DNA from: Microvenator marinus
GTDB taxonomy: Bacteria; Myxococcota_A; Bradymonadia; Bradymonadales; Bradymonadaceae
Assembly (NCBI RefSeq): GCF_007993755.1
Contig: NZ_CP042467.1
Span: 372,001-436,000, forward strand
Direction of reading: 5' to 3'
Length of the DNA: 64,000 nt
Every line of letters starts with the position of its first letter. Position 1 is the first letter of the stretch. Below the pieces are notes generated by a model. It ran no database searches, was not told the origin of the DNA, and saw nothing but the letters and a program-made list of their open reading frames with translations. Shown here one piece after another: positions 33,737 to 38,223 of this stretch. Made by a program: the position numbers and the translations under genes.

Positions 33737-33790
33737 AAGAAAGTGTAAACGCGCCCGAGAGGCGTGGGTCATCGGTTCAAGGAGGACCTC

Positions 33791-35029
33791 TTGACAGAGA
33801 AGAAACCAGATCTGTCCGATTTGAAAGCCCGTTTGGGACTCAATAAACCCGGTGCTGCACCGCCCCCAGGGGCTACGCCACCCGCAGGCTCGCCAAGTGT
33901 CGGTCCTCAAGGCTCAACCTCACCGGCACCGAATGTCACGCCATCTCAAGGTTTGGCTGCCATTCCGGGTGCTCCCCAAGGGCCGAGCAACCAAGTTCCA
34001 GTAAGCGGTCTACCGCCCGGACTCGGTGCACCAGGTCAGGCTCAGCCGGCCGCGCCTCCACAGGCACAGGCTCCACCTCAGGCTCAGATGCCGCCGCAGG
34101 CGCAGGCGCCTCCTCAAGGTTTCGGGCCACCACCCGGTGCTGCACCTCCTACGGCCGCACCTCGTCCGGCGCCAGCTCCTAAGAAGGCCGCTCCGGTACC
34201 GTCCCCGTCCAATCTTTCTGCGGATATCTCAATCGGCAACGATATCGACGCAGCTCCCGTGTTTTCGAAAGGAACACTGGTGCTCTTCGCGATCTGTTTG
34301 GTGGTGGGAAGTGTGTTCGGTTACGCTGCGTCCACAACCATGTACACCAACGAAATCAACAGTGCGCGAAGTGACGATGCACAGAAGATCCTCGACGTGG
34401 TCAAGCCAAAGGTCGATGCGTTTCGGGAAGCCATTCCTAAGATTTCTTCGCTCAGCGAAACGGCTCCGGATTTTGAGGCCACCAAGGCAATCGGCACAGA
34501 GTTCGCTCTTGACGGAAGCCCGCTCGGCGGACCTCGCGTCCTGATTGGCCAAGCAGCCATCGACTCGGTGATGACCTACGCGATCGAGTCTCAAATGCTC
34601 GCCGCAATGTTGAAAGAGCATGAGCGTCTTACGAATGCTGACCGCGAGGAGATCGAGCAGTTGGCGAAAGATAATGAGATTTTGGAGAATCAGTTCTTCG
34701 GAGTCACATTTGATTACGTACACGCGCTAAAGAACGGTGGTGAGGCCAATTACGTACCCAAGGAAGGCCGTCTCGTAATCGGTCGCGGACCGGTCGAAGG
34801 CGACCCATCCAAGGTCAAGATTGAGCTCCCTGGAAGTGGGCAAGAGTCTGAGGTTGCAATCCAGGGGTACATCCCGATTGGTAAGCAGCAAATCATGCGC
34901 TCCGCAGGCCAGAATGCTCTGACCCGCTATCAATCACGAGTTCGCCAGATCAAATTCCAATCTCAAAAGATTGAAAAGGCACTCGAAGGCGTTACCGCCT
35001 CCCTTCAGGCTGTTGTCGAAGGCGCCTGA
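33791..35029 (+). CDS. Proline-rich single-pass membrane protein
   Basis: No family recognised. I choose the TTG at 33791 (MTEKKPDLSDLKARLGLNKP) because AAGGAGG lies 5 nt upstream; longer readings are unlikely. The ribosome site can fold with neighbouring bases into a weak hairpin. Residues about 20-140 are a Pro/Ala/Gln-rich cytoplasmic linker (PPQAQAPPQAQMPPQAQ). One membrane helix follows at about 162-180 (TLVLFAICLVVGSVFGYA) and then an extracytoplasmic helical domain. It ends 8 nt before the acyl ligase gene. Confidence 0.8.
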   Translation: MTEKKPDLSDLKARLGLNKPGAAPPPGATPPAGSPSVGPQGSTSPAPNVTPSQGLAAIPGAPQGPSNQVPVSGLPPGLGAPGQAQPAAPPQAQAPPQAQMPPQAQAPPQGFGPPPGAAPPTAAPRPAPAPKKAAPVPSPSNLSADISIGNDIDAAPVFSKGTLVLFAICLVVGSVFGYAASTTMYTNEINSARSDDAQKILDVVKPKVDAFREAIPKISSLSETAPDFEATKAIGTEFALDGSPLGGPRVLIGQAAIDSVMTYAIESQMLAAMLKEHERLTNADREEIEQLAKDNEILENQFFGVTFDYVHALKNGGEANYVPKEGRLVIGRGPVEGDPSKVKIELPGSGQESEVAIQGYIPIGKQQIMRSAGQNALTRYQSRVRQIKFQSQKIEKALEGVTASLQAVVEGA

Positions 35030-36846: not shown

Positions 36847-36874
36847 TTGACGCGGTCCACGGTGGTTGTACGGT
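36847..36874 (+). promoter_or_regulatory. Predicted promoter of the PilZ-dapF unit
   Basis: TTGACG (36847-36852), a 16-nt spacer and TACGGT (36869-36874), preceded by an A/T-rich tract. Transcription would start near 36882 and give a leader of about 165 nt before the PilZ start at 37049. Confidence 0.4.
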
Positions 36875-36970
36875 GGATGTAGGTGGAGCGCTGCAAGGCA
36901 CTCACCTGACCTAACTGCACGAGGGCGCAGTAAGGAATTTGCATCGCAGGACCTGTCACGGATGACTACT

Positions 36971-37045
36971 GGCACAAGGATGTGCCGCCTGAGATGCCCG
37001 CATTCACGAATGGCCAAGGATGGCCTCCAACATGTGCAGGAGCAC
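36971..37045 (+). promoter_or_regulatory. Three tandem leader hairpins with GGA loops, candidate CsrA/RsmA target
   Basis: Hairpin 1 is GGCAC-AAGGAT-GTGCC (36971-36986), hairpin 2 is GGCC-AAGGAT-GGCC (37012-37025), and hairpin 3 is GTGC-AGGA-GCAC (37034-37045). Each shows GGA in the loop. ACAAGGATGT across hairpin 1 (36974-36983) matches the last ten bases of the CsrA SELEX consensus RUACARGGAUGU exactly. Hairpin 3 holds the Shine-Dalgarno CAGGAG of the PilZ gene, whose ATG is at 37049. This is the layout of CsrA-repressed leaders. Seen: the hairpins and motif; inferred: CsrA control. Confidence 0.55.
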
Positions 37046-37048
37046 CAG

Positions 37049-37441
37049 ATGAATGTAGACACGTTGATCCGAAGAAGTCCGAAAGCGAAGCCAATGTTTG
37101 GTGGGTTTCGTCGATTCAATCGACACGACCTTAAGACGTCGGTCGTAGTTCAGGACGAAGAGGGCTGGGAGATTCCATTGGATTCTGTGAACTTGAGCCC
37201 AACCGGCATGTTCGTTGAGTCCGACTTTCTATTCGAAGTTGGCGACCGCCACATTTTGATTTTTGAGGCGCCTGATAGTGGGGCGTGGATTCGCGTCGAG
37301 GCCAAGGTTATCCGAGTGGATAGCGGCGAAGTCGACACTCGCGTAAGCCCTCCAGAATCCATGCCATCGGGTATGGCTTACGAGTTCGAAGCGATTGAGG
37401 ACGCCTCTTGGAGCGAACTCTGCCGGATTCTCGAGGCGTAA
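37049..37441 (+). CDS. PilZ domain protein (predicted c-di-GMP binding)
   Basis: The 130-residue protein has an RRFNR (RxxxR) near residue 20 and NLSPTGMF (D/NxSxxG) near residue 50, the two halves of the PilZ c-di-GMP site, in the expected order. No other domain is present, so it is a stand-alone receptor. I use the ATG at 37049 because CAGGAG lies 6 nt upstream. An in-frame ATG at 37010 would add 13 residues and lacks a ribosome site, but cannot be excluded. dapF begins 2 nt after its stop. Confidence 0.85.
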   Translation: MNVDTLIRRSPKAKPMFGGFRRFNRHDLKTSVVVQDEEGWEIPLDSVNLSPTGMFVESDFLFEVGDRHILIFEAPDSGAWIRVEAKVIRVDSGEVDTRVSPPESMPSGMAYEFEAIEDASWSELCRILEA

Positions 37442-37443
37442 TC

Positions 37444-38223
37444 ATGTCCCTTGAGTTTGTGAAGATGCACGGGCTCGGGAATGATTTTGTGCTGGTCCAA
37501 GGCAAGCGAAGCGACTTCAGTTTGGAGTGGGTGAAAAGGGTGTGTGAGCCGCATTTCGGTGTGGGTGCCGATGGTGTTCTATTCTACTCGGTCGAAACCC
37601 CGCGAATGGAAGTGGTTAATGCCGATGGATCCACGCCAGAGATGTGCGGAAATGGCCTTCGGTGTGTGGCGCGGTGGCTCAACCATCATCACGGCTTACC
37701 GGGGACGTTTGTGATTCAGACGGATGCTGGAGCAAAGCTCTGCACCGTTAATCCAGATGGTCAGGTGCGAATCGAGATGGGAGAGGCGAAAATTCGCGAA
37801 CTAAGAACACACGTGGGCGAAGTGAGTTTGAAGGGGATCTTTGTGGACATGGGGAACCCCCATTTCGTGGTCTTTTCTCCCGATGGCGATCTTGTTGAAT
37901 TGGGAAAAGCAGTCAATGACGGTCACAAGGACTTTCCCAACGGAGTGAATCTCGAGTTCGTAGATAGCGAGTCTCCGGAACGACTTGTAGTGAGGGTTTG
38001 GGAACGCGGGGTTGGGCTTACGCTCGCCTGTGGCACGGGTGCTTGCGCGAGTGCGGCCGCTGCGTGGCATCTGCGAGGGGAATCGACGCCGCTCGAAGTT
38101 CAACTTCCCGGTGGAATTCTTCAAATTGAACACTCAGAAGGGCAAGTCCTGATGACAGGTCCCACACAGATAGTGTACACGGGGGCGCTTTCGGCGTCTT
38201 TCAACGAGGAAGTAGAGGAGTAG
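37444..38223 (+). CDS. dapF: Diaminopimelate epimerase
   Basis: The 259-residue protein has the two catalytic Cys sites, NADGSTPEMCGNGLRC and LACGTGACASAAA, and the family opening KMHGLGNDFVLV. It interconverts LL- and meso-diaminopimelate for lysine and peptidoglycan synthesis without cofactor. ATG 37444 is 2 nt after the PilZ stop, so its expression may be tied to the structured leader upstream. Confidence 0.96.
   Translation: MSLEFVKMHGLGNDFVLVQGKRSDFSLEWVKRVCEPHFGVGADGVLFYSVETPRMEVVNADGSTPEMCGNGLRCVARWLNHHHGLPGTFVIQTDAGAKLCTVNPDGQVRIEMGEAKIRELRTHVGEVSLKGIFVDMGNPHFVVFSPDGDLVELGKAVNDGHKDFPNGVNLEFVDSESPERLVVRVWERGVGLTLACGTGACASAAAAWHLRGESTPLEVQLPGGILQIEHSEGQVLMTGPTQIVYTGALSASFNEEVEE

Follow-up and report, generated by a model that had tools for sequence, protein, structure and literature searches.

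The analyzed window is a stretch of 64,000 nucleotides from the genome of Microvenator marinus (now Allomicrovenator marinus, order Bradymonadales, according to the taxonomy), which consists of one contig of 5,847,748 bases. Bradymonadales such as this species prey on other bacteria and have type IV pili (PMC7460792, in part). The locus studied here comprises a PilZ-domain gene, the diaminopimelate epimerase gene that follows it, and an upstream region with a row of hairpins carrying GGA in their loops. Its features, in window positions, are as follows.

36847..36874, + strand: promoter-like boxes TTGACG and TACGGT separated by 16 nt; boxes with the same spacing occur in 16 of 18 orthologous leaders
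36881..37048, + strand: 5' leader of about 168 nt with seven GGAs, predicted from the boxes
36955..36966, + strand: hairpin 1, GTCA-CGGA-TGAC, absent from the original prediction
36971..36986, + strand: hairpin 2, GGCAC-AAGGAT-GTGCC, holding the SELEX-like ACAAGGATGT; it has a counterpart in genomes G004, G010 and G007
37012..37025, + strand: hairpin 3, GGCC-AAGGAT-GGCC, partner of the hairpin at the Shine-Dalgarno (SD) sequence; its GGA lies 21 nt upstream of the GGA of the latter
37034..37045, + strand: hairpin 4, GTGC-AGGA-GCAC, over the SD of pilZ; retained, on altered stems, by 17 of 18 orthologues
37049..37441, + strand: pilZ, PilZ-domain protein of 130 aa (Pfam PF07238, E 1.9e-9)
37444..38223, + strand: dapF, diaminopimelate epimerase (Pfam PF01678, E 2.5e-50), beginning two bases past the pilZ stop

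Leader hairpins

The original prediction, made from the sequence of this region, had described three GGA-loop hairpins in a row and at least six GGAs in the likely leader, and had suggested control of pilZ by CsrA. The three hairpins are indeed present, the last one covering the SD that precedes the ATG at 37049, while a fourth one at 36955-36966 had been overlooked; GGA occurs seven times between approximately 36881 and this ATG. The transcription start at about 36881 is predicted from the promoter-like boxes, the pattern of which was fitted by eye to the alignment of orthologous leaders, and a generic consensus scan listed no promoter at 36847-36874.

The loop GGAs of hairpins 1-4 start at positions 36960, 36978, 37018 and 37039, with spacings of 18, 40 and 21 nt, and all four are located in loops of the predicted minimum-energy fold of the leader. 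The stability of the whole-leader fold is not unusual (z -1.06, with 31 of 200 shuffles being as good). The SD hairpin of M. marinus can be drawn either as a CAGGAG loop on three pairs or as AGGA on four pairs, and in this respect belongs to a less typical class. As had been proposed, ACAAGGATGT agrees from its third base on with the CsrA SELEX consensus, for which RUACARGGAUGU was taken from PMC7652899 (in part).

Start of pilZ and gene order

The pilZ frame is open upstream as far as 36866, and the CsrA proposal had been made dependent on the start not lying at 37010, where the hairpins would be coding. The start at 37010 is ruled out both by the alignment of 18 family proteins, the homology of which begins at the ATG at 37049, and by the position of the SD GGA, which lies at -10 of the pilZ start in 15 of 18 orthologues and at -9, -8 and -11 in the remaining three. 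The motifs RxxxR and (D/N)xSxxG are characteristic of c-di-GMP-binding PilZ proteins. Both patterns are recognized in the product of this gene, with R21 and R25 invariant in all 18 proteins and NLSPTG in positions 48-53 in M. marinus, and the protein is thus predicted to belong to the c-di-GMP-binding class.

The gene dapF is downstream of pilZ in all 18 family loci. As measured from match ends, it starts no more than about 40 nt from the pilZ stop in 16 of them and about 140 and 160 nt away in G010 and G007, respectively. Translational coupling from pilZ to dapF may be inferred from this arrangement; it would be weakened in G010 and G007, because of the longer distance there. The AMP-binding gene upstream of pilZ is retained in 14 of 18 loci. 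A proline-rich gene, the second one upstream of pilZ, has a hairpin GGTTC-AAGGA-GGACC of its own (window 33770-33795), resembling the pilZ SD hairpin of relatives; its GGA would be at -10 if translation began with the TTG at 33791, the GTG at 33764 being also open.

Genomes compared

The comparison set consisted of 57 genomes, of which 21 belong to the same family as M. marinus (its own genome, the source of the window, is G000) and five to the sister family. The search for PilZ relatives was positive in 26 of the 57 genomes, and orthologues are present in 18 of the 21 own-family genomes, with no match in G001, G012 and G015; all orthologue counts out of 18 below refer to own-family pilZ loci. 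With the single PilZ protein as a query against the named relatives, none was confirmed, while the PilZ alignment as a query yielded 11 loci. Near the start of the G006 contig there is a string that we take to resemble a sequencing adapter (L017:1-60), and the upstream part of this locus may be unreliable.

Conservation of the SD hairpin

Conservation in relatives had been named as a check on the hairpins, and it holds for the SD hairpin, which is retained through compensatory changes. In particular, the SD GGA lies in a loop of 4-6 nt closed by at least four pairs in 17 of 18 family orthologues, the sole exception being G006. The inner four pairs occur in nine forms, namely GTGC/GCAC, TGCC/GGCA, GGAT/GTCC, GGAT/ATCC, CTCC/GGAG, GTCC/GGAC, AATT/GATT, AACC/GGTT and AGCA/TGCT.

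The same rule selects 17 of 18 pilZ starts, compared with 20 of 207 other starts with GGA at the SD distance; when G-U pairs are discounted, the SD-GGA hairpin is found at 16 of 18 pilZ starts and at 10 of 207 ordinary gene starts. The 207 control starts were chosen mechanically, a choice that left out pilZ itself. They supersede a rough earlier control, in which each gene was represented by the best among several of its starts and GGAs and 7 of 42 genes in the window were positive, pilZ among them. At the dapF starts of the same loci the SD-GGA hairpin is found in 0 of 18 cases, and only five of these starts have any GGA at the SD distance.

Exchange of flanks between genera, with the register re-optimised, yields a hairpin in 64 of 280 combinations, and in 42 of 258 when three genera sharing one stem are not exchanged among themselves. 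In the covariation test, which covers 6 of the 16 distinct sequences, those sharing the hexaloop register, each of the four pairs varies on both sides, and 95.8% of the cells are paired, compared with 58.3% in shuffles (none of 500 shuffles reaches the observed value) and no more than 58.3% when the partners are slid. A permutation analysis gave 46 of 48 paired and 0 of 100,000 permutations as good, but it is biased, as the arms had been pre-chosen by the best register, and the flank swaps and the 207-start control are fairer.

The presence of the SD within a hairpin in nearly all orthologues would also fit hairpins acting without CsrA, by structure that slows initiation, by temperature sensing or through another RNA-binding protein, the more so since CsrA binding to this leader is itself a prediction. 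However, the SD stays in the loop and not in the stem, the NGGA/ANGGA form of the loop is kept in all 17 cases, and the same loops recur in hairpins distant from the SD; an action of this kind is considered decidedly unlikely.

Architecture of the leaders in relatives

Four hairpins are present in each of M. marinus, G004, G010 and G007, the first two being separated by 18-20 nt from GGA to GGA. This tandem upstream pair is mostly kept in letters, and its covariation is weak. In eight further genomes the SD hairpin has a single partner, located at -36 or -37 in G011 and G019, at -47 in G003, and at +15, within the first codons, in G008, G002, G014, G020 and G017. The SD hairpin occurs without a second one in 5 of 18 leaders (G005, G009, G013, G016, G018), and in G006 no such hairpin is present. 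In total, a partner hairpin is found 20-42 nt from the SD hairpin in 12 of 18 leaders and, by the rule used, in none of the other six. The SD site is therefore the constant one, while the partner site moves among relatives.

Of the three sister-family relatives examined, G025 and G023 combine an upstream ANGGAX hairpin with a hairpin of three pairs at the SD, and G022 lacks a clear SD hairpin. In the short loci of these three genomes dapF was not found.

In the 18 leaders, 37 of 83 GGAs on the sense strand lie in hairpins, compared with 3 of 40 on the antisense strand (40 nt of coding sequence being included, and a leader of 150 nt being assumed for the two loci without recognized boxes). This sense-strand bias points to RNA. 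It also bears on the explanation that the inverted repeats serve a transcription factor as DNA operators, or are mere chance, which is suggested by hairpins 2 and 3 being near-palindromes. Operators would be oddly placed here, as the hairpins lie approximately 70-160 nt inside the predicted transcript, and their asymmetric loop GGA prefers the sense strand; moreover, the stems differ among genera while the loop is kept, the opposite of what is expected of an operator. We regard this explanation as most improbable.

Chance expectation in the genome

In 464 kb of the genome scanned on both strands, 506 of 15,086 GGAs (3.4%) are in such hairpins when G-U pairs are discounted. The pilZ leader is the only place there with four GGA hairpins within 100 nt, and clusters of three occur at two other places.

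The sequence motifs behave differently. ACAAGGATGT has 13 copies in the genome, compared with two for the backwards pattern, and 9 of the 12 copies other than the pilZ one are within a same-strand open frame; the pilZ copy is the only one with a 7-pair stem and adjacent hairpins. Three close ANGGA motifs are found 55 times in the genome and 65 times in the reversed control, that is, with no genome-wide enrichment. A stricter ANGGA pattern gives four versus one, and it skipped the pilZ leader, whose gap exceeds the pattern by one base. The signal thus resides in the hairpins, their position and their conservation, while the motif ACAAGGATGT and ANGGA clustering by themselves carry no weight.

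CsrA, FliW and flagellin

The proposal also presupposed a csrA gene in the organism. One copy was found in the M. marinus genome, with L4 and R44, the residues critical for RNA binding (PMC7652899, in part), both present. In the whole set csrA is found in 46 of 57 genomes, including 19 of 21 in the family, and the two family genomes lacking it have a completeness of 87 and 77%; the latter, G019, has the SD hairpin at pilZ. In 7 of the 19 family genomes (L031, L032, L039-L042, L047) the SD region of csrA itself has the form CACTC-(A/G)TGGA(A/G)AG-GAGTG, with GGA in an 8-nt loop, which is a possible autoregulation site.

The CsrA antagonist FliW was searched for in all 57 genomes and found in 18, including four of five in the sister family and none of the 21 in the family of M. 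marinus. Residue 55 of CsrA, which is N in FliW-bound CsrA and contacts FliW (PMC11934962, in part), was scored in 30 of the 46 csrA-bearing genomes (loci L001, L029-L057). All seven scored genomes that have FliW carry N at this position, and none of the 21 alignable genomes that lack FliW does (19 from the family, G021 and G031). In M. marinus this residue is D, and N is seen in none of the 19 family CsrAs; in the four further FliW-less genomes it is D in one, R in one, and unalignable in two. Of 15 family genomes tested for flagellin, four were positive. M. marinus is one of them, with three flagellin-domain genes at G000:C1:3778439-3807627, though FliW was not found in its genome, and none of these three genes has an SD-GGA hairpin. 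Hence csrA persists in the family without FliW and often without flagellin.

The absence of FliW from all 21 family genomes, together with the four sites in each of M. marinus, G004, G010 and G007, could indicate that the leader also, or even mainly, titrates CsrA, pulling it away from other messages during pilZ transcription and so replacing FliW. No competing sponge RNA emerged from the searches: Rfam gave no match over the 64-kb window, and a tandem-hairpin model built from four genomes (R1) scored only the pilZ leader (E 1e-7, the next one having E 2.3) among the 150 of 2022 candidates that were scored, a fraction that leaves room for a separate sponge RNA. Still, the remaining 14 of 18 leaders have at most two such hairpins, and the most conserved site covers the SD, as it would in a target. 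Titration as the additional or main role of the leader seems unlikely.

Proposed mechanism

In the standard mode of repression, a CsrA dimer at the SD is anchored by a partner site. From the computed hairpins, their conservation through changed letters, the strand bias, the csrA gene with its key residues, and the gene order, we infer CsrA binding at the leader, repression as its effect, and coupling to dapF. The pilZ-dapF leader is, with good confidence, predicted to be a multi-site CsrA target, where CsrA would repress pilZ and, by coupling, dapF. A genuine switch of the known CsrA type is very probable, because relatives keep such hairpins although the letters have changed. The original interpretation of CsrA control is supported by these sequence comparisons, and none of the findings it had named as speaking against it was obtained.

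One CsrA dimer may occupy the SD hairpin of pilZ and the partner hairpin about 20 nt upstream, and a second dimer could hold the upstream pair. Bound CsrA would block the ribosome at pilZ, and dapF would be lowered as well, because it begins two bases after the pilZ stop. When free CsrA drops, the c-di-GMP receptor and diaminopimelate epimerase would rise together. CsrA bridges sites that are 10-63 nt apart, best above 18 (PMC7652899, in part), and ANGGAX hexaloops and AAGGA/AGGGA pentaloops on a stem have high affinity in the case of RsmE (PMC4005645, in part). The leader loops fall into these classes, and the hairpin spacings suit bridging by one dimer.

Bound CsrA might instead activate or stabilise the pilZ message, as it activates ymdA (PMC7492729, in part) and motD and 15040 in Acidithiobacillus caldus (PMC13029372, in part). 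The best conserved site is, however, over the SD, the usual place of repression, and activation is deemed very unlikely.

Comparison with known CsrA systems

In the literature searched, no paper joining CsrA with Bradymonadales was found, and a search for CsrA with Myxococcota gave nothing on the topic, judging by titles. The matches listed for CsrA or RsmA with PilZ contain no pilZ-dapF case in their titles and the beginnings of their abstracts.

CsrB/RsmZ sponge RNAs are similar in having several ANGGA hairpins in a row, but the array described here is in an mRNA leader, ends in the conserved SD of pilZ, and lies in a window without Rfam matches. The CsrA-FliW-flagellin system of Bacillus and Campylobacter is alike in that CsrA occludes the SD (PMC7652899, in part), which is predicted here; the family differs from this system in FliW (0/21), N55 (0/19), flagellin (4/15), and the lack of an SD-GGA hairpin at the flagellin-domain genes. 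The loss of FliW may surprise a specialist more than the pilZ leader. One could imagine a bradymonadal CsrA freed from FliW and mostly from flagellin, and retained for other tasks, with pilZ-dapF (c-di-GMP reception plus the supply of cell-wall precursors) as a family-wide core target among them and the four-site leaders doubling as titrators that replace FliW, but this broader scenario is improbable. Because the family has csrA without FliW and without N55, the FliW-contact residue, the CsrA antagonist in this lineage becomes a clear question.

The closest case by gene type is the PilZ-domain gene 07035 of A. caldus, where CsrA binds the leader and lowers reporter expression (PMC13029372, in part). 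Likened by description, the two share the type of a CsrA-bound leader of a PilZ gene, the CsrA site in the pilZ-dapF leader being only predicted. The A. caldus gene had been chosen as lying near csrA among flagellar genes, while pilZ of M. marinus lies far away from csrA, in front of dapF.

The closest in architecture are the CsrA/RsmE leaders of glgC in E. coli and hcnA in Pseudomonas, which have GGA in the loop of an SD hairpin and partners at bridging distance (PMC7652899 and PMC4005645, both in part). In M. marinus, too, a further site lies at the bridging distance of CsrA (10-63 nt), namely the GGA 21 nt upstream of the SD site. Unlike in these two systems, the predicted CsrA site belongs to pilZ-dapF, the organism has no FliW, and the partner moves upstream or into codons 5-9 among relatives. 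CsrA-bound leaders are thus already known as a kind, to which the pilZ leader as a CsrA target is a well-supported addition, while the operon, the organism group and the conservation appear to be new. This addition names a conserved and testable candidate target of CsrA in an order of predatory bacteria, where Csr has hardly been studied, and, if true, it would tie the Csr system, c-di-GMP and diaminopimelate synthesis together in one transcript.
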